DNA from: Deltaproteobacteria bacterium GWF2_42_12
GTDB lineage: Bacteria; Desulfobacterota; GWC2-55-46; UBA9637
DNA length: 35,740 bases
Direction: 5' to 3'
Assembly (NCBI GenBank): GCA_001797665.1
Contig: MGQA01000071.1
Coordinates: 1-35,740, forward strand
Numbering within the stretch: the stretch's first letter is position 1; each line of letters starts with the position of its first letter. Below, piece after piece: positions 9,002 to 30,104 of this stretch. The translations under genes were made by a program, and so were the position numbers. Below the pieces are notes generated by a model, which saw only the letters and a list, made by a program, of their open reading frames with translations, was not told the origin of the DNA and searched no databases.

Positions 9002-9496
9002 CTATTTACCCAATCCATACTTTATATAATTAACAATATGCCACCTGTCCTCAGGTAATATAGAATCTCTATAATAAGGCATTATTGCCAGCCCACCGTA
9101 TGTTATCGCGTAATAGATGTTCCCTTCAGATTTTTTCTGGACATATTCACTCGTAAGGTCAGTTGGAGGGACATATTTCTTTCCAACAACACCATCTCCA
9201 ACGCCCTTTTCTCCATGACACACAGCACAGTAAGTAGTATATAACCATTTACCTCTTTCAAGGGATTCTTTATTAAGAGAGATTGGGTTGCGAACCTCAT
9301 CTGACTGTGCCCTATCTTCAATAAGTATTGGTCTACCACGCGTGGATGTTGTTCCATGCGGTATCTCAAGCGCCTTATCCTCCTGGGCCTTATGGGAAGG
9401 CTGGAAAAACATGTCTGTTGTCCAAGGCCATCCCCAGCTATGTCCAGGACTAATCAGTATTAAGAGACAATAAAAAACAACAGGTCTAATCCTCAT
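9002..9496 (-). CDS. actE: Alternative complex III monoheme cytochrome c subunit ActE
   Basis: CAVCHGEKGVGDG heme motif, ERGKWLYTTYCAVCHG; genomic position after ActD. Confidence 0.85.
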   Translation of the reverse strand: MRIRPVVFYCLLILISPGHSWGWPWTTDMFFQPSHKAQEDKALEIPHGTTSTRGRPILIEDRAQSDEVRNPISLNKESLERGKWLYTTYCAVCHGEKGVGDGVVGKKYVPPTDLTSEYVQKKSEGNIYYAITYGGLAIMPYYRDSILPEDRWHIVNYIKYGLGK

Positions 9497-9995
9497 AAAT
9501 CCTTTTAACCTCCTCAGCGCCGGCTTCTTTCAGAACCTCTTCTACGTACCTCAGTTTTTCCTCCTCTGCCCTAACAAGTAAACCAAATCTATCTACGCCA
9601 ATCTTTATGTCATATACCCTTTTCTTATAGTAAGGCAGCCTTGCAAAAAACAGGAAACTGACAAGTGTAGCAAAAACCCCCAAAAGGATTGTTGTTTCAT
9701 AGGCTATCACAACAGTAGGCGTGACAGACCAGACGGGTTTCCCAAATCTGGGGAGAATATAAAGGGCTGCAGTGCCGAAGGCGAGAGTGGTTCCAAAGAA
9801 AAACCCTGTCAGGCTGCCAAAGAACGTAAAAAATTTAATTGGGTTCTTCTTCTCTCCCAAGACGTGATCTACTTCATGGACAATAGGTATCGGCGAGAAG
9901 ATTGTGATATTCCTGTAGCCAGCCTGCTTTAATCTCGCAGCGGCTCCAAGAAGTCTGTCTGCATATGGAAAGAAACCTAAAACGCTATGATTCAT
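9486..9995 (-). CDS. actD: Alternative complex III subunit ActD
   Basis: Two TM helices; PIPIVHEVDHVLGEKKNPIKFFTFFGSLTGFFFG typical of ActD; gene order. Confidence 0.87.
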   Translation of the reverse strand: MNHSVLGFFPYADRLLGAAARLKQAGYRNITIFSPIPIVHEVDHVLGEKKNPIKFFTFFGSLTGFFFGTTLAFGTAALYILPRFGKPVWSVTPTVVIAYETTILLGVFATLVSFLFFARLPYYKKRVYDIKIGVDRFGLLVRAEEEKLRYVEEVLKEAGAEEVKRIYED

Positions 9996-9996
9996 C

Positions 9997-11328
9997 TTAG
10001 TGCCCTTTCTTTTCCATCGGAATACCTATGTCTTCTTTAATTTCATAAATGGAAAAACTCGGCCACAGTTTTACAAATAATAAAAAAAGAAGGGTGAAGA
10101 ATAAGAAAGTGCCCACGGTCAGGGATATCTCCACCCATGATGGAAAGTAATCCCTCCACATATTAGGCAAAAACTTTCGCGGCAGAGAGGTAGAGATAAT
10201 GAGGTATCTCTCTATCCACATCCCTATATTGATGCCAATTGAGATAAGTAGCGCAGCCACTATAGATACCCTTACTTTTCTGAAGACGAAGAGGAGCGGG
10301 AAAAAGGTGTTACATGCAATCATGAGCCAGAATAGATAGGCAAAAGGAGTCGTAAACATTCTGTATGACAGACTCTCCAGCTCATAGGATGTGCCAGTAT
10401 ACCAGCCGGTAAAAACCTCTGTTATATTTACATATGTCCATAACAAAGACATCACTACCAGCAGGATTCCAAGCTTATCAAAATGCACATGTGTTATGTA
10501 TTTTTCAAACTTGATGGCCTTCCTTAGCAGTATCATAAGCGTGACTATCCCGGCAGAGCCTGAATATATAGCGCCTATGACAAAGTAAGGGGCGAATATG
10601 GTTTTGTTCAGCCCAGGAATCTTTGATGAGGCAAAGTCCCATGACACGATACTGTGAACAGATACAGCCAATGGTATGATAAAGACCGCAAAGAATGTAT
10701 ATGCCTTTTGGAGGAGATCCCACTCCCTGTCTGTCCCCCGCCACCCCAGGGCAAGGGCTCCATATAAACTTTTCCTCCACCCTGCAACCCTATCCCTGAC
10801 CGCAGCCAGATCTGGTATAGAACCAAAATAGAGAAAGATAAAACTTGCCGTGGCATACGTGCCTATGGCAAAGACATCAAACATCAGTGGAGACTTGAAG
10901 TTTGTCCATAGCTCTCTCTGGTTGGGATAAGGGAATGTCCAGTACCAGTTCCAAGGCCTCCCCATATGGACGAACACCATAGTAGCGGCTGTTACAACAG
11001 AAAAGAAAGTCATTGCCTCAGCGCTTCTATATATAGACCTCCTCCATGGGGTTTGGGTAATAAATAAAATAGCTGACAGAAGGGTCCCAGAGTGACTTAT
11101 ACCTATCCAGAATACAAAGTTTGTAAGATATACCCCCCAGTAGGCAGGGCTATGTAGTCCCGTAACCCCCTGACCTGTATATATCTGATATACCCATGGA
11201 AGACCGAACGTAATCACAATACCCACCAAACATAAAGATAGAGCGATATAATAACTACGGCCAGTCTCGGTCATAGTCCTTACTACATCATCATTCACTT
11301 CTCTGTAAGATATATTACTCATGTCCAA
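9997..11328 (-). CDS. actC: Alternative complex III NrfD-like subunit ActC
   Basis: Polytopic; GISHSGTLLSAILFITQTPWRRSIYRSAEAMTFF, FVHMGRPWNWYWTFPYPNQRELW. Confidence 0.9.
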   Translation of the reverse strand: MDMSNISYREVNDDVVRTMTETGRSYYIALSLCLVGIVITFGLPWVYQIYTGQGVTGLHSPAYWGVYLTNFVFWIGISHSGTLLSAILFITQTPWRRSIYRSAEAMTFFSVVTAATMVFVHMGRPWNWYWTFPYPNQRELWTNFKSPLMFDVFAIGTYATASFIFLYFGSIPDLAAVRDRVAGWRKSLYGALALGWRGTDREWDLLQKAYTFFAVFIIPLAVSVHSIVSWDFASSKIPGLNKTIFAPYFVIGAIYSGSAGIVTLMILLRKAIKFEKYITHVHFDKLGILLVVMSLLWTYVNITEVFTGWYTGTSYELESLSYRMFTTPFAYLFWLMIACNTFFPLLFVFRKVRVSIVAALLISIGINIGMWIERYLIISTSLPRKFLPNMWRDYFPSWVEISLTVGTFLFFTLLFLLFVKLWPSFSIYEIKEDIGIPMEKKGH

Positions 11329-12169
11329 TGGTTGAACTTCCTTTCATTACCCTTTTCAAGTATATTATGGTGGGAGCAGCATTAAGGTCTTCCAAGAGTC
11401 TGTATGCCCTGGGATTTTTTGATATCTTAGCGAGCTTACTTCCTGATTCCCTTAAGTAATAAGGTTCAGCTGGTAGCCCAGCTAATTTAGATACCTGGCT
11501 ATTGGGATCATTCAAGTCGCCAAATGTAAGCGCCTTTGATGGGCATGACTGGACACACGCAGGAATTACCTCTCCATCCCTCACCTTTCTATTTTCATCC
11601 TTTGCCCTGTCCTTTGCAGCAACGATTCTCTGGATACAGAATGTACATTTTTCCATTACCCCCATTGTCCTTACAGTCACATCTGGATTTAACTGTTCAT
11701 CAAGGGGTGATTCAAACGACCCCTTATCCTTATAAGTAAACCAGTTAAAGCGACGCACATCATAAGGACAATATGTCGCACATGTAAATGTCCCCACACA
11801 ACGGTTGTAAACCTGAACATTTAAACCATCCTGATTGTGGTATGTAGCATATACAGGGCAGGCAACCTCGCAAGGGGCTTTATCACAGTGGGCGCAGAAA
11901 ACTGGAATAAACTTGACTTTGACATCAGGATATTCTCCCTCCACATATCTTTCAATCCTCATCCAATTTAGCACCCTTCCTTTACCGGATTCTTCTTCAC
12001 CTACAACAGGCGTATTGTTTTCGGCCTGACATGCGGTAACGCACGCCCCACAGCCTGTGCATCTGTCCAGGTCTACCACCATAGCCCACCAGTAATCATA
12101 CCTCTTATAGTAGCCAGGCTCCCTATATATCTTAAACCTTTCCAGTAGTCTATCTAAAAACCCAGCCAC
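11315..12169 (-). CDS. actB2: Alternative complex III iron-sulfur subunit ActB2
   Basis: FeS motifs CTGCGACVTACQ, CAHCDKAPCEVACP, CVGTFTCATYCP, CTFCIQR..CVQSCP; directly follows ActB1 as a separate ORF. Confidence 0.87.
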   Translation of the reverse strand: MAGFLDRLLERFKIYREPGYYKRYDYWWAMVVDLDRCTGCGACVTACQAENNTPVVGEEESGKGRVLNWMRIERYVEGEYPDVKVKFIPVFCAHCDKAPCEVACPVYATYHNQDGLNVQVYNRCVGTFTCATYCPYDVRRFNWFTYKDKGSFESPLDEQLNPDVTVRTMGVMEKCTFCIQRIVAAKDRAKDENRKVRDGEVIPACVQSCPSKALTFGDLNDPNSQVSKLAGLPAEPYYLRESGSKLAKISKNPRAYRLLEDLNAAPTIIYLKRVMKGSSTIGHE

Positions 12170-14416
12170 CTATCCCTCCTTCACCTGAAATTCTTCTGGG
12201 GTGATGGTCTGAACAATATCCCTGCCCAACTCCTTTGTCCACCCTGCCATCTTTACCAATCTTCCGGGACTATTAGTCTTTGTAATCTTAACCTTTGTAG
12301 AATTATGAGATACAGCGCCTGTCCTCTCGTCTACTTTAAATGGTAATAGGTCAAGGGGATTGGCGCCCCTGCCTTCAGCATACTTACCGTAGAATTTGTG
12401 TCCCTGGCCAATAGGAATACTTATAGTATCTGGTCTTTGACCTGCATATAGGCAAACTGGAGCATATATCTTGCCAAAAGGTGATTCCACTTCTATCACA
12501 TCCCCCTCTTTTATCCCCATAGTTGTTGCTCTTTCAGGGTTCATCTCTATCCATGTCCCCCATACCACTGATGTCATAGCATCGGGTAACTCCTGGAGCC
12601 ATGGAAGATTTGCGCCCCTCCCATCCATGTAACTGGAATGGGGGTAAAGGGTAAGGTAAAATGGGTAATCTTTATCATCCCCGTCAAAGCTGGCAGGACC
12701 TTTAGGCAGATATGGAGTTATTTTATTCACCGATATATAGACTTTTTTCCCTGCCTGTGATTCCTCTTTCCACCAACCACCCTTTGATAGGAGATTATTC
12801 CAAAACTCTTCAAAGGTTGTTTCCCTAATCTCTTTCATATCTTTATGCTTGTTATATACCATCTTCCAGGAGGCCTGTAGATATGCGCCAAAGTCTGTCC
12901 ATGGTATCTCTTTCTGAAAAACCCCTGCTAAATTTCTGGCAAGGTGGATGAATATATCGCCTACGCTTTTCGTATTAAATACAGGATTGACTGCTGGTTG
13001 CATTATTGTAGCCACAGGATAACCCACTGATGGTTCTGTGAAATTATCGCCCCAATCTTCAAGATACGTATGCGTGGGAAGTATAAGGTCAGATAGAAGT
13101 GTGGTCTCATCCATAAAACTGGACAGACTAACTATAAGCGGGATATTCTTTAATTGTCCTTCAACCTTCACAGCCCCTGGCGTAGTGAAGACCGGGTTTG
13201 TATCATATAGGATAAGGGTCTTTATTTTCCCCTTTGATGCATCCTGCATAAGGCTATTTACTGGAATAAATGAGCTTTTTTCTATATCCCGATTTGGGAT
13301 AATCCCGCCGCTAATCCCTATATTATTGCCTGCTAAATAATTGAGTATATTAATAGCTACAAGGTTTGATACCCCATTCTCATATGATGATACATTTTCA
13401 CCCCCAATGGCAAGGCTCGGTTTTGTTTTAGAAAACTCCCTCGCTATACCAATAATCCTCTCCTCTGCCACCTCAGTTACCTTTGCCACATCCCGTGGAG
13501 TAAATCTCTCCAGGGCAGCCAGCCATTTCCCTCTATCCTCGCCTTTATAGTAACCTCCCTCAACGATTTCATAAGCTATAGCAAGGGCAAGAAGCCCTTC
13601 TGTCCCTGGTTTCACAGCAACCCACTCATCGGCATTGGCTCCTGTAAGGGAAAGTCGCGGCTCTACCTGAATCACCTTACCCCTCAAACCCGGCCGTCCC
13701 TGCCTCATATGACCATAGGCGTAGCTATAATTTACAGGGGATATCCATGTGGTCAGGAAATCAGCGCCAAAGGATAGCAAGAGATTGGTATTTTCTATAT
13801 CATAATGAGGCAGGCTGTTTTGACCAAATGTGATATTATTCGCAAAACGGAGATTTTCGTAATTAATAAGCTCATAGGCAAAGTATTTGGATGAGCCGTA
13901 GGCATTCATGAAATTTTTAAGCAGTAACTTAAGATGTCCACTTATAGGCGAAGTGAGAAGATAAAGGCCATCACCCTCACCCCTGTCACGAAGTTCTTTC
14001 AGATTTTTGGACAGTATGGTAAGTCCTTCTTCCCACGTGATTTCTTGAAACTCCCCCTTTCCCCTCTCGCCAATGCGCCGCAGCGGGTTCTTAATCCTTC
14101 CGGGATTATAGAGAACCTGCAACCCTGCCTGTCCCCTGGCGCAAAGACCGCCTTTACTAATTGGATGGATGGGATTCCCCTCGATTTTCTTTGCCCTTCC
14201 TTCCATAACCTTGACAACTATCCCGCAACCGGCCCCGCACTGCCGGCATACACTCGCATACCAGTTGGCCACGCCTGGTATTATATCTTCAGGCGGAATA
14301 AGATAAGGTATGAGCCTGGCAGGGTTGGGCGCGTTTAACTCAGCAAGGGCAAAGCCTGCTGCCGCGCCAGCGCTGCCTATTCCTACAACTCTTAGAAAAT
14401 CCCTTCTGTTTAGCAT
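12170..14416 (-). CDS. actB1: Alternative complex III molybdopterin-oxidoreductase-like subunit ActB1
   Basis: Tat motif NRRDFLRVVG; CRQCGAGCGIVVKVMEGRAKKIEGNP..GGLCARGQAG; molybdopterin oxidoreductase-like fold motifs. Confidence 0.88.
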   Translation of the reverse strand: MLNRRDFLRVVGIGSAGAAAGFALAELNAPNPARLIPYLIPPEDIIPGVANWYASVCRQCGAGCGIVVKVMEGRAKKIEGNPIHPISKGGLCARGQAGLQVLYNPGRIKNPLRRIGERGKGEFQEITWEEGLTILSKNLKELRDRGEGDGLYLLTSPISGHLKLLLKNFMNAYGSSKYFAYELINYENLRFANNITFGQNSLPHYDIENTNLLLSFGADFLTTWISPVNYSYAYGHMRQGRPGLRGKVIQVEPRLSLTGANADEWVAVKPGTEGLLALAIAYEIVEGGYYKGEDRGKWLAALERFTPRDVAKVTEVAEERIIGIAREFSKTKPSLAIGGENVSSYENGVSNLVAINILNYLAGNNIGISGGIIPNRDIEKSSFIPVNSLMQDASKGKIKTLILYDTNPVFTTPGAVKVEGQLKNIPLIVSLSSFMDETTLLSDLILPTHTYLEDWGDNFTEPSVGYPVATIMQPAVNPVFNTKSVGDIFIHLARNLAGVFQKEIPWTDFGAYLQASWKMVYNKHKDMKEIRETTFEEFWNNLLSKGGWWKEESQAGKKVYISVNKITPYLPKGPASFDGDDKDYPFYLTLYPHSSYMDGRGANLPWLQELPDAMTSVVWGTWIEMNPERATTMGIKEGDVIEVESPFGKIYAPVCLYAGQRPDTISIPIGQGHKFYGKYAEGRGANPLDLLPFKVDERTGAVSHNSTKVKITKTNSPGRLVKMAGWTKELGRDIVQTITPEEFQVKEG

Positions 14417-14427
14417 CCTATATATAC

Positions 14428-14988
14428 CTATTTATGGCATGTCCAGCAATCAGTGCCATTCCTTACCGGGCCTCCTATAAATTCTTTTGCCCCGTTTTTA
14501 TGACAGTCAAGACACCACCCCATCTTTAGAGGAGAAACTCTTAGAAATGGGACACCAAAGATAACAGTCTGGCGCGTAATTCTATCCATCTTTGCCACAT
14601 CCCCATGGCACCTCTGGCAAGGCACCGATGCCTTTACATGTCTTTTATGGGAAAAATAAACATAATCAGGAAGGTTATACACCTTGATCCATGGGATGGG
14701 TTCCTTCTTTTCCCAGTAAGAGACAACCTTCTGTATCTCCGGAGAATCGGTCTTGATTATCTTATGACACCCCATGCACTTCTGCACACTGGGAACCCCG
14801 GATATAGTAGATTTATCTGCGTAGATATGACAGTACAGACAGGGGATACTGTTATCAGCCGCATGGACTTTATGACTGAAATTTATGGGCTGTTCAGGGG
14901 CCCTATCAGAAAAGTAGATGAGATTTATATTATAACCTATTGTAAATGTTATAATTGCCACTGTGAGATATAAAAGAAATCTTTTCAT
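14428..14988 (-). CDS. actA: Alternative complex III pentaheme cytochrome c subunit ActA
   Basis: Five CxxCH motifs (CLYCH, CMGCH, CQRCH, CLDCH, CWTCH), N-terminal TM anchor, first gene of the act operon. Confidence 0.9.
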   Translation of the reverse strand: MKRFLLYLTVAIITFTIGYNINLIYFSDRAPEQPINFSHKVHAADNSIPCLYCHIYADKSTISGVPSVQKCMGCHKIIKTDSPEIQKVVSYWEKKEPIPWIKVYNLPDYVYFSHKRHVKASVPCQRCHGDVAKMDRITRQTVIFGVPFLRVSPLKMGWCLDCHKNGAKEFIGGPVRNGTDCWTCHK

Positions 14989-15696: not shown

Positions 15697-16515
15697 TTAA
15701 TGTCCGAACCGCCTTTGAAATAGTACCGATATGTCTCTTCCCCAGATAAATAGGATGATTATTAGGATAGTCATGCTTTCAAGGACCATCTTCACAATAA
15801 ACGGGTAATCAAGTTTGTATGTCCCTGTTGCATTGTCATATTTATAACAAAAGAGTTTAAGCCTATCTATAAACCCTCCTATTTTTATCTCTTTTTGTTC
15901 TGCTGTCTTATAAATCGCCTCAGAAACAGGTTGCAGGACATCCCGCGGTTTAAAATCAATGCCATAAACATGTTCGTATATCTTGCCTTTAGAATCCACA
16001 ATTGTCAAAAAATTGAGATGGTCAAATCCTCCTTCTATCTTCTTGTAATAAAATCCGAGGTTATTTGTTAATCTTTCTATCGTCTCTCTATCGGCTGTTG
16101 CAAATCGCCAGTTTTTAACATCAGCAGTAAAGTTAGCCCCATATTCCTTCATCCTCTGCGGCGTATCATTTTCTACATCAAAACCGATTGTTATCACACT
16201 AAACTTATCGCCAAAATCCTTGTCAGCCTCTTGAATTGCATTACCAAGATTCGCTGTTATAGTTGGACATATATGGCCGCAACTCGTATAAATAAAACTT
16301 ATGACAAGTGGCTTGCCAACTGCAAACTCCCTAAGGCTAAAATTCTTGCCATCCTGATCAATAAGTGTGTAATCACCAACTTCCTTTCCGATTGCGTCAT
16401 TTGAGAGCTTAAGCGCCTTGGAAGCCTCTTGCTCAGATACTGAGGCAAGCGAGTTCGAGTAAAAAAAGGCAAGAGATATTACAACAAATAAAAATAATTT
16501 CTTTAGAATTTTCAT
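15697..16515 (-). CDS. SCO1/SenC/PrrC-family copper chaperone with extra C-terminal TM helix
   Basis: SFIYTSCGHICPT copper motif, DHLNFLTIVDSKG; start MKILKKL at 16515 just after the cyoE stop. Confidence 0.88.
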   Translation of the reverse strand: MKILKKLFLFVVISLAFFYSNSLASVSEQEASKALKLSNDAIGKEVGDYTLIDQDGKNFSLREFAVGKPLVISFIYTSCGHICPTITANLGNAIQEADKDFGDKFSVITIGFDVENDTPQRMKEYGANFTADVKNWRFATADRETIERLTNNLGFYYKKIEGGFDHLNFLTIVDSKGKIYEHVYGIDFKPRDVLQPVSEAIYKTAEQKEIKIGGFIDRLKLFCYKYDNATGTYKLDYPFIVKMVLESMTILIIILFIWGRDISVLFQRRFGH

Positions 16516-16522
16516 AAGCCCA

Positions 16523-17389
16523 TTATCGAACAATGACATCAACAATAACAGCCAAGAATAGCACGCCAAGATAGACCATAGATGCCTTGAAGTTTTTCCA
16601 TGCAATCTCTTTTGATGTGTTTGACAGCAACTGAATATTCCTTATGATGAAGAACGCACCAAGCCCTATGGCCGTCACAGTATAAAATATACCCAGGTAG
16701 CCAAAGTAGGAAGGAAGAAGAGAGGATATAACCAGAAGTATTGTGTTTAACAAAATATAACGGGCGGTCTTTGAATCCCCTATTACAACAGGAAGCATTG
16801 GAATGCCTGCCTTTGCATATTCTTCCCTGTGGACTATGGCAAAGCTCCAGAAATGGGACGGTGTCCAGAAAAACATTGTCACTGCTAACAAAACAGGCGT
16901 CATACAAAACTCCGGCGTAGCAGATGCCCCTCCAGCGAGTACAGCAAAGCTTCCTGCAAGCCCTCCGATTATTATGTTTAACCAACTCTTTCTCTTAAGC
17001 CATACAGTGTAAACCACTGCATATACCAAAGCTCCAAGAAACAGGTGCAGGCTTACCATATAGTTAAGGGCATTAAACGAGACAAATATAGCGGCAATAA
17101 AAAGAATGGCTGCCACGAACAGGGGCTTTCTTGAGTTATCGATACTCCCTGAGGGTATCGGCCTCTTTTGCGTCCGTTTCATGACAGCATCTATGTCCAT
17201 GTCAAAGTAGTGATTGAAGGCACTTGCAGCAGATGAGGCCATCATTGTAGCAAGAATTAAAAATGCAACATTGCTTATAGAAACACTATCTGATGATGTG
17301 GCAATAAGACCAACAACGGCACTAAAGGTGATTAACGAACAAATCCTGAATTTAAAAAGAGGGAAATAATGTTTTAGACTTATCTGCAT
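16523..17389 (-). CDS. cyoE: Protoheme IX farnesyltransferase (heme O synthase)
   Basis: SAFNHYFDMDIDAVMKRTQKRPIPSG prenyltransferase motif; polytopic UbiA-type protein. Confidence 0.93.
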   Translation of the reverse strand: MQISLKHYFPLFKFRICSLITFSAVVGLIATSSDSVSISNVAFLILATMMASSAASAFNHYFDMDIDAVMKRTQKRPIPSGSIDNSRKPLFVAAILFIAAIFVSFNALNYMVSLHLFLGALVYAVVYTVWLKRKSWLNIIIGGLAGSFAVLAGGASATPEFCMTPVLLAVTMFFWTPSHFWSFAIVHREEYAKAGIPMLPVVIGDSKTARYILLNTILLVISSLLPSYFGYLGIFYTVTAIGLGAFFIIRNIQLLSNTSKEIAWKNFKASMVYLGVLFLAVIVDVIVR

Positions 17390-17506: not shown

Positions 17507-18982
17507 CTACCAGGATTTATTCTCTTGAAAAGACTTTTTAACAGGGTCGGCAACCGGAAAAACCCTTTGGGGCCCAATAAGAGACAGAATAGAATTTACA
17601 ACAAATATAATGCCGCCTGTGATAGCTATGAGGCCACCGATACCAACAATAGACATACCTATGATCTTGGCAATATCATCAAGATTCTGGGCAGCGCCAA
17701 AGGTCTTTCGCTGTACACCATGAGAGCCTGCTATGAACATGCCTATCACAAAAAGTGTCTGACCAATACCATAAACATATGGTTGCATCCTTGCCAGCCT
17801 CGCACTGTAAATATCCCTCTTTAAAGTATAAATCATGTGGTTTGTAAGCCCCATAAATGACAGGGTAACTCCGCCTATTACACCGTGATAATGGGAAGGT
17901 ATCTTTGTATTAGAACCATATATCATCAGCGAAATAAAACCACCAAAGACAAAAATCGCCATAGATATGACAAGGGATGAAAATGCCGGTTCTGCCCATG
18001 GAAGACCTTTGATTTTTGATAAGAGTTTATTGCCTCCGCTTGAGCTCATTATCAGGATTAAAAGTGCTATTGCAAAAATACCTGTAGATGGCCCAAGACC
18101 ATACTGCATAAGTGATGTAAAGGTATCTTTATATTCCTGACTGGCAGTGTCATAAATAAAATAAATGAAAGGGGCAGGAATGACAAATAAGAGGTAAAAT
18201 AAATAAAGCGCCTTTGCATACATGTCTTTTATTGGAAATTTTTTAAATACAAGATTTGCCGAAAAAAGCCATACAGTAACCATTGCGATGGTATTTGCAA
18301 ACTGGAGAATATGTCCACCCCCCCAGAAGAGTGTCTCAAAGTCCAGCAATACCTTCCTCGAAGGCGCAAATATCTGAAAATAGTAGGAAAGCCCAAAACA
18401 GATAAATGCAATTGCAACTGCCATACCAGACATTGCCATCCCAAATGTTATTAAGGGAACAGGGCCGCTATATGTCCGTTCTTTAAATGCCTTCCTTATT
18501 GTCAGAAAGGTGTTTAAGAGGGTAATGGCAATGCCGGCAGCCAGTATCAGGAGTCCGGTATAAAAGAGAGGATGCGTCAATACAGGGATATAATTGATAA
18601 ATAAAGGGATACCGAGACCAAAGATTGCAGCAATTACTATAAATACTGTGCCAGCCACAGAGAGCCAGAAACCAGACCACGCCACTGCTCTGCTAAAGAT
18701 TCTAACACCAAGAAACTCTGTGCTGGTGAATGTCCACAGCACGCCTTCAAAAGCCAGAAACCATATTACAACTGACAGGATGACATGCCCGACAAGCGCA
18801 ATGCGGATGTAGTCCTTTCCAGGAAGGATGTCCTGAATAACCGGCGTGCGGGCCATAGCCACGAGGAATGCAAATATACCCGCAAATATAAGGGAGGATA
18901 CGGCAAAGAAAAGCCATGCATAAATAAGATTATTACTCCTCTCATTACTCTTTTGTTGATTGACGAACTCCATAGGATACAC
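17507..18982 (-). CDS. Heme-copper oxidase/NOR superfamily subunit I homologue lacking CuB His-His
   Basis: About 12 TM; helix II LVGHVILSV, helix VI FWGGGHILQFANTIAMVTVW, helix X HYHGVIGGVTLSFMGL; HH dyad absent by ungapped alignment to the 26261-27796 product. Confidence 0.8.
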   Translation of the reverse strand: MYPMEFVNQQKSNERSNNLIYAWLFFAVSSLIFAGIFAFLVAMARTPVIQDILPGKDYIRIALVGHVILSVVIWFLAFEGVLWTFTSTEFLGVRIFSRAVAWSGFWLSVAGTVFIVIAAIFGLGIPLFINYIPVLTHPLFYTGLLILAAGIAITLLNTFLTIRKAFKERTYSGPVPLITFGMAMSGMAVAIAFICFGLSYYFQIFAPSRKVLLDFETLFWGGGHILQFANTIAMVTVWLFSANLVFKKFPIKDMYAKALYLFYLLFVIPAPFIYFIYDTASQEYKDTFTSLMQYGLGPSTGIFAIALLILIMSSSGGNKLLSKIKGLPWAEPAFSSLVISMAIFVFGGFISLMIYGSNTKIPSHYHGVIGGVTLSFMGLTNHMIYTLKRDIYSARLARMQPYVYGIGQTLFVIGMFIAGSHGVQRKTFGAAQNLDDIAKIIGMSIVGIGGLIAITGGIIFVVNSILSLIGPQRVFPVADPVKKSFQENKSW

Positions 18983-19347: not shown

Positions 19348-19806
19348 GTGGATAGGAAAAAGAAGATATACCTTCAATATGGGGCTATTTTCATATTCAT
19401 TATGGTCTTCGGCATCATAAACTTTTTAGTCAAGACACCGGAGGTATGGCGCAGTAGTATGCCCAAATACAAGTATGCAACAATTCCTCCAAAAGACCTC
19501 ATGGATTTGATGAGCCGAAATACTGAACTTATAATTGTTGATGCAAGGGCTACAGATGATTTTAAAAATGGCTATATAAAAGGGGCTACAAACTTCCCCT
19601 ATATAAACCTTAAGAAGATGGAAAAGGCATTAAAAAAAGACAGGGAAAAAATAATTGTCATATATTGTAAGGATGGCAAAATTTCAAAAGAGATCAGCGA
19701 TGTTCTTTCAAATCTCGGTTTTAGCAATATCAAGAATCTTGATGGCGGTATAAATGGCTGGATAGCAGCGGGTGGAGAAATTGTTACTACTGGTAGCATA
19801 AAATAG
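19348..19806 (+). CDS. Membrane-anchored rhodanese-like protein
   Basis: N-terminal TM; LIIVDARATDDFKNGYIKGATNFPY, IVIYCKDGKISKE, NLDGGINGWIAAG; GTG start with gaggaggt RBS. Confidence 0.88.
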   Translation: MDRKKKIYLQYGAIFIFIMVFGIINFLVKTPEVWRSSMPKYKYATIPPKDLMDLMSRNTELIIVDARATDDFKNGYIKGATNFPYINLKKMEKALKKDREKIIVIYCKDGKISKEISDVLSNLGFSNIKNLDGGINGWIAAGGEIVTTGSIK

Positions 19807-20091: not shown

Positions 20092-22134
20092 TTATAAAGA
20101 ACTTTTTAGCATAGTGGACAAATCTATTACAACAACCCCTCTTGCCTCAACATCTATTTTCTCTTCAAATGTATAATCAAAGGCAGGCCCCTCTTTTGAC
20201 TCCCCCATCCTAACCTTGACCTCATGCATCCCAGGCACAACAGGTATCTCCTCGTAGGCAAATACTGGGCCATCCTTTCTCAGACCCGCAGGGTAATAGA
20301 TTTTGGACAATACATTCTTATCATCTAAATCTACCTCTACATATACCGGGAACCTTTCTCTGCCGCAATCCATCCTGATACTGGGGAATGGAGAGTTGGT
20401 TTTCCTCATATGCAGGGGCAATGCCTCTATCTCCTCTTTAGTTAATTCCCTGCAGCCGCCTATATGCTTACTGGAGTGTTTAAATGTGAATTTTATTAAG
20501 GATTTATCCTTGCTGTAGAACGGGTATATAGGCTTTGTGGATAGAAAGAGTATCAGGAAGGCCGGCAACAGAAATGCAGGTATGGCAGACGCTATTACTC
20601 TTTTAAAAGACCATCTCCTGTCTTCTATTGATTTTATAATCCGGGGTTTTTCATGCACAGATATATTATAGGCATTGAGATTTTCTTCAAAAAGCCGCAG
20701 TTCCTCTGCAAGTTTTGTGGTGTTAATGGATGATAGCCAGTACTCTCCGATTCTCTGGCAATCAACCATCTTATTAGAAAACGGCGGCCTCTCACCTCTA
20801 AGCCTTGCCTGCAGCCAGACATTGCCCTCACGATAATGACAATCGCCAATTACACAGCCGCAGAGAAAAATACCGTCTGCGCCTGATTTAAATCCTGTTT
20901 CTATCATTGAGGGTTGCACCATGCCGATGCAGGGTAGCGCTATTGCCTTAATATTTGCCCTCTCCTTTATAATGTCTGCCACTGCATCAAACCTTACACT
21001 TCGCTTACAAACCAGCAACAGGATTCTGGGGCGCCTATCCGTTTGTATGGCAGCTAAGAGTTTTATTATCTCTTCTTTAATCTGTGTCTCGGTCATTTCA
21101 GGCAGGTTGATAGCATTAAAATCACATGCACCTACGCAGATGCCGCAGGCAGCACACCTCTCAGGCATAATGACTGCCTTTAGCCTATAAGGAAATCTCT
21201 CTTCAGGGGGTTGCAAACGGATAGCCCCGTAAGGGCAATCCTTATTACATTGGTCACAGCCTGTACAGTTTTCTGATGTTACCTGTGCAGTAAGCAGCCT
21301 GTGCCTCTTCGTCCAAGGGAGTATAAATAGTATAATGGTTCCGCCTATGGTAATTAACCAGAAGATAGATTTAGGAAGAAGAGACCTTACAGGGTAGATG
21401 AAAAAGAAAAACCAATCAAAGGGTGTGTTTATCGGCAATCTGGCGAGGTCTGCTGGTTGAGCGCTGGTGGCAGGTAGAATGATAGATGCAATGAGTAGCA
21501 CAACAGCCACACCCGCAGTAACAGCCCTGGGGGTTTTAAGTACAGGTCTTGGGCATCTAATGATATGGATACCTATCAGAACAATCATGCCGAGCGGCAA
21601 AGCCACATGCAAAAAGTGCAGCAGGAAAAAAAACATTCCGCTGATAGATTCATTGCTGAGAAAAGACCTTGACGGAGGCTCCATAAAAAAGAATATGTCA
21701 TTCAGCAGCTCTGCTGTCTTTAGGGCAATTAACTGGGCCCTTTCATCCCAAACCAGCCAGTAACCTGAAATACCCAACATTAAACTGACTATAAAAAGCA
21801 CCACACCTGAGACCCAGGCTATCCATCTGTAGTGGCTGTATCTGCCATTAACGTATTCACGGATTGTATGCAGGACAATGGAGATTACCAAACCATCAGA
21901 GGCATATCTATGGAGGCTTCTCATTATGCCGCCCAGATACCATTGTTTCTCAGTTAAGTCCTGGACTATCTTATAAGGGTTATTAGTCCTGTAAAAGATA
22001 AAGAGGTATATGCCGCTTATTAACAGTATAAGAAAGAAAAGGGTGGATATTGCTCCGAGGTAGTAGAATGGGTTGTACTTGGGTGAGAAGAGCCTGTTGA
22101 GCTGGTCTTCAATATAGAGGAATAATTTTTTCAA
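20092..22134 (-). CDS. Cytochrome b / 2x[4Fe-4S] ferredoxin / MvhD-like fusion protein, paralogue 2
   Basis: b6-like HRYASDGLVISIVLH and HVALPLGMIVLIGIH; CTGCDQCNKDCP, CAACGICVGAC; MvhD-like CIGMVQPSMIETGFKSGADGIFLCGCVIGDCHYREGN; extra C-terminal TM plus soluble domain. Confidence 0.87.
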   Translation of the reverse strand: MKKLFLYIEDQLNRLFSPKYNPFYYLGAISTLFFLILLISGIYLFIFYRTNNPYKIVQDLTEKQWYLGGIMRSLHRYASDGLVISIVLHTIREYVNGRYSHYRWIAWVSGVVLFIVSLMLGISGYWLVWDERAQLIALKTAELLNDIFFFMEPPSRSFLSNESISGMFFFLLHFLHVALPLGMIVLIGIHIIRCPRPVLKTPRAVTAGVAVVLLIASIILPATSAQPADLARLPINTPFDWFFFFIYPVRSLLPKSIFWLITIGGTIILFILPWTKRHRLLTAQVTSENCTGCDQCNKDCPYGAIRLQPPEERFPYRLKAVIMPERCAACGICVGACDFNAINLPEMTETQIKEEIIKLLAAIQTDRRPRILLLVCKRSVRFDAVADIIKERANIKAIALPCIGMVQPSMIETGFKSGADGIFLCGCVIGDCHYREGNVWLQARLRGERPPFSNKMVDCQRIGEYWLSSINTTKLAEELRLFEENLNAYNISVHEKPRIIKSIEDRRWSFKRVIASAIPAFLLPAFLILFLSTKPIYPFYSKDKSLIKFTFKHSSKHIGGCRELTKEEIEALPLHMRKTNSPFPSIRMDCGRERFPVYVEVDLDDKNVLSKIYYPAGLRKDGPVFAYEEIPVVPGMHEVKVRMGESKEGPAFDYTFEEKIDVEARGVVVIDLSTMLKSSL

Positions 22135-22146
22135 TCTAAATAGATT

Positions 22147-23460
22147 TTATAAAGAATTGCCGGCGCTGCTCCGCAGAGGACATTTCCTTTCATGGATGTG
22201 AGCCTCAAACTCCTTCCTGAAATGTCTGACGGCGCCCTCAACAATAAAGGCAGCCCCGGATAGAAGATGACAGTATCCCTGTCCCTTTGAAGAACTGCAT
22301 GTATTTTCAATGTTGACAAGGTCATCCATTTCACCCTGACCATCCTCAATCTTCTGGAGCAGCCGGGCCATTTTGGCAGTCCCCATCTGGCAGGGTGGGC
22401 ATTGACCGCATGACTCTTCCATGCGAAATCTGGAAAAGCCCAGTGTTGTATCCACAACACATGTTCTGTCTCCCAGAACAATAACAGCAGCACAGCCAAG
22501 CCCTGAGCCTATCTCTTTTAATGAGTCAAAATCAAGAGGGACATCAATCTGTGACTCAGTAAGAGGGGGATTGCCAGGCAGAAAGGCTGCCTTAAATCCT
22601 CTTCCGTTTTTTAACCCGTTACCGCAATTATTGATAAGCTCTTTCAGGGTAATCCCTAACGGCAACTCATATACCCCAGGTCTATTTATATCGCCGGTAA
22701 GTGTAAAGAGCATATTCCCCGGGCTCTTTGGAGAGCCTATTTTAGAAAACCACTCTCCGCCTTTTAGTACAATATGCGGTATGTTTGATAATGTTCCAGT
22801 ATTGTTCACAATGGTCGGCTTTCCATAGAGTCCTCTATTGGCCGGATAATGCGGAGGTTTTTGCCATGTCTTTGCCGCCCTGCCTTCTATTACCTCCATC
22901 ATAGCCGTTTCTTCACCAGCAACATATTTATTAGGGCACTTACGAATGCAAATATCCAGAGAAAAATCAGTTCCCAAAATTTTCTCGCCGATGTATCTCT
23001 TTTCTTTAGCCTCTTGTAATGCCTTCTCAAGCACAGTAATTTCTTTGCTATAGCTTTCAGTTATATAGAGGTAAGATTTGCGAGCCCCAACTGCATAGGA
23101 AGCTATAATAATCCCTTCTATTAATTGATGGGGATTTGAGCGGATAAGACAACGGTCCTTAAATGTTCCCTGTTCACCCTCAGCAGCATTACAGCAGAGA
23201 TATTTCTCATCTCCTGCTGCCCCGGCTACAAATTCCCATTTCCGCCATGTTGGAAACCCAGCACCTCCCCTGCCCCTAAGTCCCGAACTCTTTACCTCTT
23301 TTATAACACCCTCTGGCTTTAATTCTTTGAGTGCCTTATCCAATGCCTTATAGCCGCCGGTTGAGACATATCTTTCAATTGAGATTGTCTCTATAGAGTT
23401 AAAATCGTCCATTTGGATATCCCTGGACAACAATATCCTCTGTCTTACTGTATTATTCAC
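22147..23460 (-). CDS. NuoF-like FMN/NADH-binding flavoprotein subunit
   Basis: GLRGRGGAGFPTWRKWEF, CNAAEGEQGTFKDR, AGEETAMMEVIEG, N3-type cluster ESCGQCPPCQMGT...NTCSSSKGQGYC. Confidence 0.88.
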   Translation of the reverse strand: MNNTVRQRILLSRDIQMDDFNSIETISIERYVSTGGYKALDKALKELKPEGVIKEVKSSGLRGRGGAGFPTWRKWEFVAGAAGDEKYLCCNAAEGEQGTFKDRCLIRSNPHQLIEGIIIASYAVGARKSYLYITESYSKEITVLEKALQEAKEKRYIGEKILGTDFSLDICIRKCPNKYVAGEETAMMEVIEGRAAKTWQKPPHYPANRGLYGKPTIVNNTGTLSNIPHIVLKGGEWFSKIGSPKSPGNMLFTLTGDINRPGVYELPLGITLKELINNCGNGLKNGRGFKAAFLPGNPPLTESQIDVPLDFDSLKEIGSGLGCAAVIVLGDRTCVVDTTLGFSRFRMEESCGQCPPCQMGTAKMARLLQKIEDGQGEMDDLVNIENTCSSSKGQGYCHLLSGAAFIVEGAVRHFRKEFEAHIHERKCPLRSSAGNSL

Positions 23461-23465
23461 TTTTT

Positions 23466-25658
23466 TTACTCCTCATTTTGTCCAAGAACATAAAATTTAT
23501 TATTCACCTCGTCAAAGTCAATTATAGCGCTCATCTCTGCCTTAATATTAATCTTCTTTTCAAAGGTATAATCAAGGAGGATATCATCTTTTGAAGCCCC
23601 CATTTTGCTACTGTTTTCATGTTCTTCTACGTGCTCTTCCACTTCTTTACGTTCATAGGCTTCCTCTACACTGAGGTCCCTCATTTTAACCTTGATGTCA
23701 TGAACCCCCGGTACAATGGGTATCTCCTCATAGGCAAATGTTGAACCATCTTTTCTAATGCCTGTGGGATAATAGGTTTTGGAAAATATATTTTTATTAT
23801 CTAAATATACCTCCACATACATAGGGAGTCTTCTCCTGTCACATTCCATCCTCAGACGGGCGAAGGAAGACCGTGTCTTTCTCATATGTTTAAGCTTGGT
23901 CTCTACCTCTTCTTCAGCCAACTCCCGACAGCCAACCTGTTTACCAGAACGTTTAAAGGTGAATTTTAATAATGACTGGTCTTTGCTGTAAAACGGATAT
24001 GTAGGTTTTGTTGATAGAAAGAGTATGAGGAATGCAGGTATCAGGAGCAGAGAAGCTGCAGAAAATGCCATTGCCTTTTTATATATCCTTTCTCTGGGTA
24101 TCGCAGGTTTTATAAGACCATATGTTCTAACATTTGATATATGGCTAAGTTCATCCCGGAAAAGGTTTATCTCACTTATGAGATATTTACCATGAAGTTG
24201 AGATAGGGGAGATAACCAGTATACACGGATCCGAGAATAATTGCTCGCCGGGCCTTTAAATGGCAAAAGAACAGGCGCCCTCTCTCCCATCAATCTTGCA
24301 TTGGCCCACTTGGCGCCCTCACGATAGTAACATTCCTCCATCTGGCAGCCGCTTACAAATACACCATCCGCCCCTGATTCAAGGGCATGTTCAATTATAG
24401 AGTGTTGAATCATACCGGCACAGCGGAATGTAATAATAGGTACATTTGGCATACCTTTAATGCTTCTATTTTTAGTATCAACAATCTCGTCCAGTTTGAC
24501 GCTTTTTTCACAGATAAAACCCAGAATCTTTGGTTTTCCGTCTTGCCTCTGGGCAAGGTGTAAGAGTTCTGTTATCTCATTTTCTATTTGTTCCAATGTT
24601 CGGTCAGGCAGATTAGTCGCCTTTGAATCGCATGACCCAATGCAGATACCGCAACTCGCACACCTGCTAACCATTATCTCTGCCTGCAGAAGGTATGGTC
24701 TCCCGTCTTTTCTTGGAGCCATTCTGATGGCTTCGTATGGGCAATCTTTATTACATTGCTCACATCCTACACATTTCTCTAATATTATCTGGGCTGGCGG
24801 CAGCCTTCTGGACCTGCCAAGCCAAGGTGCCATAAAAACTATTAAGACACCTCCAACTGATGTGAACCAGAAGACCCACTTAGGCAGGACAGAAGCCAAG
24901 GGATAGATAAATAAGAAGAACCAATCAAAAGGGATATTAATTGGCAACTTAGCCATATCAGCTGTTTGAGCATTAGTCGCCGGGGCAATAAAAGATAGTA
25001 TAAAAAGGACAATTAATGTTGCAACAGCAATTACACGCGGAGGCTTAATTGCTGCCCTGGCGTTTCTTGATACATGTATAAATATAAAAGCGCTTATGCC
25101 TATAAGTGATATGCCTATATGTGCCAGGAGGAGGACAAAAAATAACATCTTGCTTATGGTATCATCGCTTAAAAAGGACCGTGAAGGAGGCTCAACAAGA
25201 ATGGGGATATCGTTAAGTAATTGGGCGGTTTTCTGGGCAATTAATTGGGCCCTTCCGTCCCAGACCATCCAGTATCCTATAATTCCAATGATAATAGAGG
25301 TTATCAGGAGGGTATTCCCGGAAAACCAGGACAACCAACGCCACTGACGGTATCTGCCGAGAAGGAACTCCCGCAACAGATGCAGCGCCATGAACATGAC
25401 TAATCCATCTGAGGCATAGCGGTGTACACTCCGCATAATGCCGCCAATATACCATTGTTCAACAGTAAGATACTGGACTGATTCGTAGGGGGTGCCGGTT
25501 CTGTAAAAGAAAAAGAGGTAGATACCGCTTATAAGTATCAGCATCATGCAAAAAAAACATAGTGTGCCTAACCAGTGCAATGGATTGTATTTAGGAGTGA
25601 ATACCCTGTCTGCCCACCCATCAACAGCATATACAATCCTTTTCCCATAATAATCCAT
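23466..25658 (-). CDS. Cytochrome b / 2x[4Fe-4S] ferredoxin / MvhD-like fusion protein, paralogue 1
   Basis: HRYASDGLVMFMALH, HIGISLIGISAFIFIH; CVGCEQCNKDCP, CASCGICIGSC; RCAGMIQHSIIEHALESGADGVFVSGCQMEECYYREG; start MDYYGKR by alignment to its paralogue. Confidence 0.86.
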   Translation of the reverse strand: MDYYGKRIVYAVDGWADRVFTPKYNPLHWLGTLCFFCMMLILISGIYLFFFYRTGTPYESVQYLTVEQWYIGGIMRSVHRYASDGLVMFMALHLLREFLLGRYRQWRWLSWFSGNTLLITSIIIGIIGYWMVWDGRAQLIAQKTAQLLNDIPILVEPPSRSFLSDDTISKMLFFVLLLAHIGISLIGISAFIFIHVSRNARAAIKPPRVIAVATLIVLFILSFIAPATNAQTADMAKLPINIPFDWFFLFIYPLASVLPKWVFWFTSVGGVLIVFMAPWLGRSRRLPPAQIILEKCVGCEQCNKDCPYEAIRMAPRKDGRPYLLQAEIMVSRCASCGICIGSCDSKATNLPDRTLEQIENEITELLHLAQRQDGKPKILGFICEKSVKLDEIVDTKNRSIKGMPNVPIITFRCAGMIQHSIIEHALESGADGVFVSGCQMEECYYREGAKWANARLMGERAPVLLPFKGPASNYSRIRVYWLSPLSQLHGKYLISEINLFRDELSHISNVRTYGLIKPAIPRERIYKKAMAFSAASLLLIPAFLILFLSTKPTYPFYSKDQSLLKFTFKRSGKQVGCRELAEEEVETKLKHMRKTRSSFARLRMECDRRRLPMYVEVYLDNKNIFSKTYYPTGIRKDGSTFAYEEIPIVPGVHDIKVKMRDLSVEEAYERKEVEEHVEEHENSSKMGASKDDILLDYTFEKKINIKAEMSAIIDFDEVNNKFYVLGQNEE

Positions 25659-25771
25659 AATCAGATTCTCCCTGCTGCACTTTAAATGATGCAACAAATT
25701 CTTTTTGTTTATTACGATTAATTACTATCTGTTCTATCAGGTGCATAATTGCACGGGTTGGTGTTCAAAAG

Positions 25772-26260: not shown

Positions 26261-27796
26261 TTATAACATCTTGGCCTCATTTGGAGCCATCTTCCTGCCA
26301 AAAAATACTGAGAGCACAGACACTCCAACATACATCGCCCCGCCTACAACTGCAACTATAACACCTATAGCTGCTATTGTTGTGAAAAAGAGCACAGCAG
26401 GGTCAAATGAGAATGGGATTACAGCATCAGCAAAGGTGATGTCCCAGTGCCTCCTTGGTGAACCAAGCGTTCCAGCTCCTCCCATTCCTAATGCAATTAG
26501 AATTATCCCAATGGCAAAAATGTATGGCTGGAGTGTAGCTATTTTTTTCCCTATAATTTCCCGTCTGAAGATAAGGGGAATCACATAATAGGTAAGGCCC
26601 ATAAATGCAAGGGTTGTCCCTCCCACAACAGTGCCATGGAAGTGACCGGTCATGGCCCAGGTATTATGAGTCTTGATGGATAACTGCTCTGTTCCATATA
26701 CAACACCTGTTATGCCGCCAATAAATCCAAATATGAACAACGAAAATATCAAGGCCGGAAAACCGGGTTCACCCCACGGCGCCTTGGTAAGCCATTCAAA
26801 TAGTCCTTTTGTATATCCCTTCTTTCGCTGGGCAACCTCAACACACATAGGAATTGCCAGGGCATGTATCATACTGGCAAGCACAGCCAAATACATGAAG
26901 TAAGAGGTATTTGCCATCTTATGGTATGGGCTTAAGGTTGGGTCTGTAAGGAGGTGGTGTTCGGATGCAAGGTTAATAAAAAGTATATACAGGAGAAATG
27001 CACTTCTGCATATCTTCTCATTAACAGGTTTTGCCCCAACAGTCAGCGCGCCCAAGAGGTACCATACAGAGACCATTGCAGTAACATTTATCTGCTGGGA
27101 TGAATGACCAAATCCCCAGAAGATTAATCTGTATACACCTGGGTCTAAGTTTGTTATCAACCCAAGAGACCAGAGTAATGTTGGTATATAGATTATAGCC
27201 CCGCACGCAAGCGTGAAAACTGCAATTATGGCTGCAGCAGACAGGCCAAATGTTACAAGCGGGACAGAACCCTCATATGTCTTCTCTGCCTTGGCGATTG
27301 CCAGGGTACCAAAGAAGATAGCGCATCCAATCAAGGCGCCAACAGCAAAAAGTATAATCCCCAAATAGTATAGCGGATCCGCCTGTAAAGGCACATAGGA
27401 GCTGAACATTACAGTCGCCTTGCCTGTAAATACCATTACATCTACCAATACTGCACCAACAAGCATAAGTAGATATGCCAGCCATGCAACCTTTGGCGCC
27501 GCAAGCCTTGAATTAAGCAAAACTGATGACCCAAAATACAGACCTGCTATCTCAAAAAATACAATCCAGAAGACAAGCATATTCAGCCCATGGGCTGTCA
27601 GGAATCTATAAAACAGGTCAGCAGACAGCAGGTGAACTGCTGGCCATCGCGTCAGTCCAACTAAAAGCGCCATTATACCGCCTACAAGGATAAATACAAC
27701 TGCTGTTACCGCATTTATCCAGACGAGGTTCTGGGTTGCTGCAAAAACCTTTTTCCCTGTTATGGGACAGGTTCTAAACTCTGATCCATTTGACAT
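26261..27796 (-). CDS. Heme-copper oxidoreductase subunit I (B-family/eNOR-like)
   Basis: Helix II TAHGLNML, helix VI GFGHSSQQINVTAM, CuB-type SEHHLLTDP, helix X TGHFHGTVVGG; GSPRRHWDI. Confidence 0.87.
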   Translation of the reverse strand: MSNGSEFRTCPITGKKVFAATQNLVWINAVTAVVFILVGGIMALLVGLTRWPAVHLLSADLFYRFLTAHGLNMLVFWIVFFEIAGLYFGSSVLLNSRLAAPKVAWLAYLLMLVGAVLVDVMVFTGKATVMFSSYVPLQADPLYYLGIILFAVGALIGCAIFFGTLAIAKAEKTYEGSVPLVTFGLSAAAIIAVFTLACGAIIYIPTLLWSLGLITNLDPGVYRLIFWGFGHSSQQINVTAMVSVWYLLGALTVGAKPVNEKICRSAFLLYILFINLASEHHLLTDPTLSPYHKMANTSYFMYLAVLASMIHALAIPMCVEVAQRKKGYTKGLFEWLTKAPWGEPGFPALIFSLFIFGFIGGITGVVYGTEQLSIKTHNTWAMTGHFHGTVVGGTTLAFMGLTYYVIPLIFRREIIGKKIATLQPYIFAIGIILIALGMGGAGTLGSPRRHWDITFADAVIPFSFDPAVLFFTTIAAIGVIVAVVGGAMYVGVSVLSVFFGRKMAPNEAKML

Positions 27797-27832: not shown

Positions 27833-28357
27833 CTAACTCACGATTATCTTACCTATCATAGTATGATGGCCTATCCCGCAGAATTCATTGCAGAGTATAT
27901 GGAATGTCCCTGCTGATGTAGGGGTCATATTCAATATATTGTCATGTCCAGGCACTACCTGAAAATTCATAACAAGCGGCATAAGCGAAAAACCATGCAT
28001 CAGGTCTGTTGATGATATATGGAACTTATAATTTACACCTTTCTTGAGTTTCAGTATGGGGGTCCATGTCCACATCTGCCCCCTAAGGTATACATCAGCG
28101 CCATCGGGTGGTTCAACAATCGGTATACCCCCCTCTTCCCCAACCTTGTATTTCTCTATAAAGGCGTCACTCATCTTTCTATAATCCTCTGTTCTTATCT
28201 TCATCGGATTGACTGAAGGGTTCTGGGTGCCTATGACATGCATGAGCGGCATCATAATAGTCAGAACGAGGCACCACAATAAAGCTATAGTAATCCACAA
28301 TTTTTCTTCTTTGTCTGCTGGTTTCCACCAGTACTTTTCAGGAGACGTTATAGGCAT
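27833..28357 (-). CDS. HCO subunit II with CuA site
   Basis: STDLMHGFSL and CNEFCGIGHHTM give a full CuA ligand set; one N-terminal TM helix. Confidence 0.9.
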   Translation of the reverse strand: MPITSPEKYWWKPADKEEKLWITIALLWCLVLTIMMPLMHVIGTQNPSVNPMKIRTEDYRKMSDAFIEKYKVGEEGGIPIVEPPDGADVYLRGQMWTWTPILKLKKGVNYKFHISSTDLMHGFSLMPLVMNFQVVPGHDNILNMTPTSAGTFHILCNEFCGIGHHTMIGKIIVS

Positions 28358-29027: not shown

Positions 29028-29099
29028 TTTTAATCCTTGCAGATAGTGCATTATTTATGTAGAATTTAGTGATATAATAAATTCATGGAGGTGTTTTAT

Positions 29100-29327
29100 A
29101 TGATAAGGGAAAAGGTAGAAAAGGCCCTCGACAATATAAGACCAGCGCTTCAGGCAGATGGTGGAGATATTAGGTTAGTAGATATTGATGAAGCAAAGGG
29201 TGTTGTGAGGGTTCAGCTTCAGGGCGCATGTGCAGGTTGTCCGAGTTCGCAGATAACACTTGCCATGGGCGTCGAACGGGCAATAAAGGAAGAAGTGCCA
29301 GAGGTGAAAGAAGTAGTGTCAGTGTAG
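29100..29327 (+). CDS. NifU C-terminal-domain (Nfu-like) Fe-S scaffold protein
   Basis: MIREKVEKALDNIRPALQADGGDIRLVDI...CAGCPSSQITL; ggaggt RBS before ATG 29100. Confidence 0.93.
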   Translation: MIREKVEKALDNIRPALQADGGDIRLVDIDEAKGVVRVQLQGACAGCPSSQITLAMGVERAIKEEVPEVKEVVSV

Positions 29328-29389
29328 AACTTTATTGCAAATTGAAGATTGGAAATTTTAAAATGAAAGAAGGTAAATCTGCAATCTGA

Positions 29390-29650
<261 letters not shown>

Positions 29651-29696
29651 AATAACGGCAACACGGTTGCCTTGGTCCAAAAACGGAGGTCTCTAA

Positions 29697-30104
29697 ATGA
29701 GCAAGATTACAGTTTGGTTTATCAAAAGCGCGCTGGTGTATTTTATCCTGGCAGTGATACTCGGACTGCATATGGCAGTTTCTGGCACGCAATATCCTTA
29801 CATGCCTATCCATGCCCATTTCAATCTACTGGGCTGGATGTCAATGATGATATATGGGGTTGGATATCACATACTCCCGAGGTTCAGCGGTAGGCCTCTT
29901 TACAGTGAAAAATTGGCTGAGTGGCAGTTCTGGCTCGCAAATATCGGACTTGTCGGCATGGCCCTTGGCTGGATTGTCAAAACCGGCTGGGGAGATGCAA
30001 ATATGTTGCTTATATTTTCTATTGTAGAGGCATTGGCAGCAGTATTCTTTGTTGTAAACATGTTTAAGACAATAAAGGCTGCACCGCCGGTTCCGGCAAA
30101 CTAA
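29697..30104 (+). CDS. Stand-alone HCO subunit I-like 4-TM membrane protein
   Basis: IHAHFNLLGWMSMMIYGVGYHILPRF resembles helix X (HxH) of the HCO I proteins in this window; only 135 aa. Confidence 0.72.
   Translation: MSKITVWFIKSALVYFILAVILGLHMAVSGTQYPYMPIHAHFNLLGWMSMMIYGVGYHILPRFSGRPLYSEKLAEWQFWLANIGLVGMALGWIVKTGWGDANMLLIFSIVEALAAVFFVVNMFKTIKAAPPVPAN

Follow-up and report, generated by a model that had tools for sequence, protein, structure and literature searches.

A NuoF-type flavoprotein between paralogous cytochrome b-ferredoxin-MvhD fusions beside an eNOR-like gene cluster: a predicted NADH-linked membrane complex

What might a NuoF-type flavoprotein do when its gene lies between two genes for paralogous cytochrome b fusions? 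The question is raised by contig MGQA01000071.1 of Deltaproteobacteria bacterium GWF2_42_12 (assembly GCA_001797665.1, genome G000 here), the whole 35,740 nucleotides of which were analysed and are referred to as the window. Three of its genes (Table 1) follow one another in the order A1-NuoF-A2 with intergenic gaps of 5 and 12 nt. The preliminary description of this DNA had recognised two paralogous fusions flanking a NuoF-like protein, and its open reading frames (ORFs), strand and gaps are confirmed; its domains agree with the Pfam assignments, which are Cytochrome_B, Fer4 clusters and FlpD for both A1 and A2, and Complex1_51K, SLBB and NADH_4Fe-4S for NuoF. It had placed the start of A1 at an internal ATG (25658; 730 amino acids, aa), and a TTG at 25697 gives 743 aa. 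Judged from its sequence, the trio seems to encode a membrane complex, as yet undescribed, that would take electrons from NADH. Searches of the literature and of curated families for this architecture found no described family with such a domain combination, and the trio is best called a set of known modules newly combined and attached to an eNOR-type cluster, with a function that can be proposed by analogy.

The trio is not peculiar to this contig. A NuoF scan of GTDB 220, with one genome per species, yielded 199 confirmed relatives, and the 80 best were retained; among them the top 12 (63-95% identity) are all trio NuoFs, and the next relative is 45% identical. The trio is present in 12 records (L021-L032) and in two further Nitrospirota genomes (G152, G115), spanning at least two phyla; the records are labelled Nitrospirae/Nitrospiria/Thermodesulfovibrionia, Nitrospinae/Nitrospinota and Deltaproteobacteria. 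The preliminary description had proposed a search for conserved synteny, and this search shows that the trio recurs across genomes with its order kept: A1-NuoF-A2 is found in every L021-L032 contig of sufficient length, often with an opposite-strand rhodanese gene next to it. The A1, NuoF and A2 proteins of L021 and G003, apparently one record, are 93-96% identical to those of the window. Among 63 genomes of the window's class the trio occurs only in G000 and G003, most of the other A-positive genomes having no adjacent NuoF gene; in a sample of 295 genomes from the phylum of G107, 19 have an A-type match and nine of these were counted as trio-bearing.

The A1, A2 and single-copy A proteins each occupy one side of a 100/100 branch, which indicates one duplication followed by joint inheritance. 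The trio arose once and has been kept as a co-inherited unit. Chance adjacency of the three genes is ruled out by the conserved synteny and the 100/100 clades of A1, A2 and NuoF, and the single split of A1 and A2, after which the two stayed together, fits a heterodimer. A2 is shortened in G152 (496 aa) and G115 (356 aa), and these genomes may be able to do without its C-terminal domain. The A2 of G115 (L162, 8031-9101) also lacks the first heme-ligand helix, which could be an assembly error or decay. Elsewhere in the window's genome there is a truncated second A-type cytochrome b copy of 254 aa (L114, 449-1213; G000:C10), and G003 has broken A pieces at L120.

The A proteins retain every ligand expected of their domains. 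In an alignment of 35 A-type homologues from trio and single-copy loci (the truncated row A2_L028 starts just before H75), the four heme His, the eight ferredoxin Cys and the four FlpD Cys are invariant. The Qo-like residues W129 and D130 of the cd-loop and D240 of the PEWY-like motif are likewise present in 35/35 rows, and W241 in 34/35; together they suggest a quinone pocket on the p side. The FlpD profile scores of A1 and A2 (65.9 and 57.1 bits; cut-off 22.3) place both in the MvhD/FlpD family. Hydropathy and AlphaFold2 models agree on six transmembrane (TM) helices ahead of the ferredoxin domain and one behind FlpD. Given the known orientation of b6 proteins, we infer that the Fe-S domains and NuoF are cytoplasmic and the C-terminal domain periplasmic. 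A fold search with the A2 model, itself of low confidence, matched MvhD (5odc_D) and, across some 290-310 columns, cytochrome b; because the models of A1 and A2 are both of low confidence, only this fold-level match is used here and no cofactor distances are claimed.

Known systems share parts of this architecture. Like the cytochrome b of bc1 and b6f complexes, which also gives the fold match, and ExtP/ExtQ-type cytochromes, the A proteins have both His pairs, six TM helices ahead of the Fe-S domain, the cd-loop and the PEWY-like Asp-Trp, but they carry fused Fe-S domains on the predicted cytoplasmic side; among the scanned proteins no Rieske protein or cytochrome c is encoded between or directly beside the trio genes, no whole-genome Rieske search having been made. 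They match ExtP (98 bits) and ExtQ (26 bits) far under the family cut-offs of 290 and 150, the two scores for NF040969 (ExtP) being 98 and 85 bits where 290 are required. In order and sequence the ferredoxin-FlpD part resembles the HdrA2 C-terminus (119.5 bits; A2 residues 281-488), but the flavin (flavin adenine dinucleotide) domain of HdrA, HdrBC and the hydrogenase of Hdr/Mvh systems are lacking and the module is fused to cytochrome b instead. In the C-terminal domain, a universal copper site (C..HM..C) was considered and rejected: the trios keep the His-Met but some single-A proteins do not, and several lineages have lost the Cys pair. That pair (about C560 and C589 in A2) is jointly kept or jointly lost in most rows of the alignment, a pattern which suggests a disulfide.

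The trio NuoF was compared, in E. coli numbering, with 43 other NuoF-type sequences. All 14 trio NuoFs keep N90, E93, E95 and E183 as well as the N3 cluster ligands C351, C354, C357 and C398, and the GRGGAGF loop is nearly intact (A65 is Gly in two, F67 is Tyr in one). Three positions that are uniform in the 43 others differ: D92 is Ala or Ser in all 14, C180 is Ala or Thr, and R358, which adjoins the cluster, is Gln. In addition G174-A175 is replaced by Cys-Pro. The protein therefore likely uses NADH, within altered flavin and cluster surroundings. It scores 458.5 bits against TIGR01959, under the curated cut-off of 558.65, and in the PDB it best matches Thermus Nqo1 and the HydB-type subunits 7t2r and 7q4v; neither a NuoE-like N-terminal domain nor a C-terminal ferredoxin was found in it. 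The residues for flavin mononucleotide (FMN), NADH and N3 are common to the complex I N-module, the HydB-type subunits of bifurcating hydrogenases and the trio NuoF, whereas the trio locus has no NuoE or NuoG partner and its NuoF clade is separate. In a midpoint-rooted tree a long stem leads to the trio NuoFs, whose clade has 100/100 support, and a 99/96 branch joins them with putative HydB-like sequences, a label taken from tree position and the PDB ranking; the complex I NuoF of the window's genome falls elsewhere. Searching E. coli DNA for NuoF gave no match.

The trio does not stand in for complex I. The preliminary description had noted that NuoE, NuoD and all further complex I subunits are missing from the window, which is true of the window, but the genome carries complex I at G000:C36, with NuoD, NuoE and NuoF in that order. 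A NuoD homologue is present in 12 of the 12 trio-bearing genomes searched, and no NuoD/NuoB/NuoH core lies in the conserved trio neighbourhood. Replacement of complex I is thus ruled out by its presence in trio genomes, and the trio is an addition to it.

The neighbours of the trio point to nitric oxide (NO). A Gln in place of Tyr defines eNOR, and in the type metagenome-assembled genome (MAG) a cupredoxin subunit II gene lies immediately upstream (PMC8756737). The gene at 26261-27796 keeps the heme and Cu_B His residues, has Gln at the position of the cross-linked Tyr and is directly preceded by a CuA gene; it is eNOR-like and predicted to encode an eNOR-type NO reductase. Its reading as an O2 oxidase, from the Pfam COX1/COX2 matches, was dropped given the active-site Gln, a motif also found in homologues on plasmids of Thermus, Thermomicrobium and Defluviimonas, where they are annotated as oxidases. 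Subunit I lies upstream of A1 in 8/8 contigs of sufficient length (the window, L021, L022, L027, L028, L031, L161 and L162), and the CuA gene is visible as well in all but L027 and L031, both of which end within subunit I. Genes for heme-O synthase and SCO1 are near the trio in many contigs, in variable order. The eNOR-signature loci of Thermus and Thermomicrobium differ in having no cytochrome b-ferredoxin-MvhD or NuoF partner, and neither partner is mentioned in the published eNOR accounts searched.

The window's eNOR-like gene is 92% identical to those of G152 and G115 and 82-87% to those of L022, L027, L028 and L031, and at most 69% identical to genes of own-order genomes outside its family; the whole trio-eNOR module was probably transferred between phyla. 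The 9FT-COMBO-42-15 Nitrospirota reportedly lack norB and have norD and norQ (PMC11033732). Several such MAGs are among the trio-bearing records, and the eNOR-like gene is a candidate for their NO reductase.

Table 1. Features of the trio and its neighbourhood in the window
Feature	Coordinates	Strand	Remarks
A1	23466..25697	-	cytochrome b / 2x[4Fe-4S] ferredoxin / FlpD(MvhD) / TM / predicted periplasmic beta domain
A1 cytochrome b region	24819..25646	-	six predicted TM helices; His pairs H92/H106 and H193/H208
A1 2x[4Fe-4S] ferredoxin domain	24615..24794	-	8 Cys
A1 FlpD/MvhD-like [2Fe-2S] domain	24183..24527	-	Cys 396, 426, 451, 456
NuoF-like FMN/NADH flavoprotein	22147..23460	-	437 aa
A2	20092..22134	-	A1 paralogue, 680 aa
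A2 cytochrome b region	21310..22134	-	H75/H89, H176/H190; PEWY-like D240-W241
A2 2x[4Fe-4S] ferredoxin domain	21109..21288	-	Cys 290, 293, 296, 300, 327, 330, 333, 337
A2 FlpD/MvhD domain	20674..21024	-	Cys 376, 402, 427, 432
A2 C-terminal beta-rich domain	20095..20517	-	predicted periplasmic; own ORF in many single-A operons
Predicted eNOR-type heme-copper catalytic subunit I	26261..27796	-	Gln replacing O2-reductase Tyr (GHSSQQ); HH and HFH kept
CuA subunit II	27833..28357	-	CNEFCGIGHHTM
SCO1/SenC copper-assembly factor	15697..16605	-	
UbiA-family prenyltransferase	16523..17389	-	heme-O synthase (CtaB/CyoE) by context
Second heme-copper-like membrane protein	17507..18982	-	
Rhodanese	19348..19806	+	conserved opposite strand beside A2

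The second heme-copper-like protein keeps the His residues of helices II, VI and X and lacks the Cu_B His-His pair; it is conserved beside the trio and is also found in genomes without it. A plus-strand row at 29085-30104, also conserved in L021, in L131 and, in part, in L108, encodes a NifU-like protein, a small ferredoxin and a 135-aa COX1-like fragment. An alternative complex III cluster occupies 7713-14988 on the minus strand, with a multiheme cytochrome c (14428), QrcB/C-like subunits (12170, 11315), NrfD (9997), ActD (9486, Pfam ActD) and a cytochrome c (9002). Finally, 3019-5353 holds a second pair of NrfD and 4Fe-4S dicluster genes, a further putative membrane oxidoreductase.

The commoner form of A is a single copy without NuoF, in a similar eNOR-type cluster. 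Most single-A relatives have the order CuA, eNOR, SCO1, A and a separate C-terminal ORF; in Defluviimonas sp. SAOS-178_SWC, whose A protein is 36% identical to A2, the operon runs CuA, eNOR, heme-O synthase, SCO, A, C-terminal protein and hemerythrin. With presence thresholds set by eye, 34 of the 63 class genomes have both A and the eNOR-like gene, 24 have neither and five are discordant (34/3/2/24; Fisher p=5e-12, uncorrected for kinship). NirS is found in 22/37 A-positive against 2/26 A-negative genomes (p=2e-5), and a NirS-type match (E=6e-120) lies at G000:C51 of the window's genome. Solitary A genes away from eNOR occur at L106, L107 and L116, and the linkage of A to eNOR is strong and not universal.

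These observations are drawn together, at what we take to be an even chance of being right, by reading the trio as an NADH-linked cytochrome b complex that serves as an input module of, or add-on to, an eNOR-type NO-reducing chain. The A1-A2 membrane pair would bear the NuoF-type NADH/FMN subunit on its cytoplasmic side. Electrons would pass from NADH to FMN, the NuoF [4Fe-4S] cluster (N3), the FlpD [2Fe-2S] cluster, the two ferredoxin [4Fe-4S] clusters and the two b hemes, and from there to quinone at the pocket resembling the Qo site of bc1/b6f; the quinol would feed a chain ending in eNOR, for example via the alternative complex III of the same window. Electron flow from NADH to quinone is downhill. 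The NADH-oxidising direction is favoured because the MvhD of known systems receives electrons from a dehydrogenase and hands them on to a ferredoxin domain (PMC9012536); by analogy NuoF would be the dehydrogenase and a b heme the next acceptor. The preliminary description, which had proposed an NAD(P)H-quinone complex or its reverse, stands in part: the co-inherited unit and the sites for FMN/NADH, 4Fe-4S, 2Fe-2S and two b hemes are all present, and it had overlooked complex I, the eNOR cluster and the single-A form. A respiratory complex outside the known types, in which a NuoF head on a cytochrome b heterodimer would link the NAD pool with NO reduction by eNOR, whether as a supercomplex dedicated to NADH:NO transfer or as an NAD+ reductase that bifurcates quinol electrons, appears unlikely.

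Several points weigh against an NADH-linked input module. NADH-to-quinone flow by itself leaves the link with eNOR, SCO1 and heme-O synthase unexplained, and the host genome already possesses complex I. The changes at D92, C180 and R358 could shift the donor or the potential of the trio NuoF. The AlphaFold2 models of A1 and A2 reach mean pLDDT values of 56 and 59 and a pTM of 0.42. Since single-A operons have no NuoF, NADH via the trio NuoF cannot be the universal donor of A.

The linkage to an enzyme rather than to the quinone pool is one point in favour of a role in biogenesis, like that of CcoG for cbb3 oxidases, which we nevertheless hold to be improbable. The A protein would move cytoplasmic electrons, supplied in the trio by NADH via NuoF, across the membrane to reduce copper or thiols for the assembly of CuA/eNOR, together with SCO1 and heme-O synthase. 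A adjoins the genes of these two in many loci, NuoF-less single-A operons included, and has a predicted periplasmic beta-rich C-terminal domain after one TM helix. CcoG/FixG presumably offers the same picture of a membrane protein with a ferredoxin domain and a periplasmic beta-rich C-terminus, encoded near oxidase genes; A differs from it in having b-heme ligands and FlpD. The C-terminal domain gives no FixG/CcoG Pfam match even at E up to 10 and has no invariant metal motif, its Cys pair being jointly lost in several trios. Moreover the quinone-pocket Asp-Trp is kept, and some A genes are solitary, away from eNOR genes.

The conserved Qo-like residues would also suit reverse or bifurcating flow, in which quinol oxidised at that site would send one electron towards CuA and eNOR and its second electron, by way of the b hemes and the Fe-S domains, to FMN, yielding NADH. 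A family of predicted autotrophic sulfur oxidisers, for which NADH has to be made with electrons from higher-potential donors, includes some of the trio hosts (PMC11033732). Movement of electrons from the p to the n side would oppose the membrane potential, however, and the cluster has no Rieske-type branch. The quinone matters as well. Futalosine-pathway genes were found in 0/41 genomes of the window's class, UbiC-like chorismate lyase matches, some of them weak, occur in 18/21, a pattern also reported for class GWC2-55-46, which makes ubiquinone (PMC13386864). With a high-potential ubiquinone NAD+ would be hard to reach, so that reverse electron transfer, which the preliminary description had offered as a variant, is disfavoured by energetics in this apparently ubiquinone-making lineage and is on the whole quite improbable. 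The balance could be different in menaquinone-using trio hosts.

A direct wire would bypass quinone: NADH electrons would run through the b hemes straight to the CuA of eNOR, and the whole would act as an NADH:NO oxidoreductase that clears NO rapidly. It would account for the tight linkage of CuA and/or catalytic subunit genes in the 8/8 informative contigs, but it is very improbable, as no redox cofactor is seen on the periplasmic side to bridge heme b and CuA, the quinone-pocket residues are conserved and the window also has genes for a c-type cytochrome and for alternative complex III.

With the NADH-linked input module as the favoured reading, the trio, which uncultured bacteria of groundwater inherit as a whole, suggests a new electron route in denitrification, which, if real, would give NADH a further entry into that process besides complex I.

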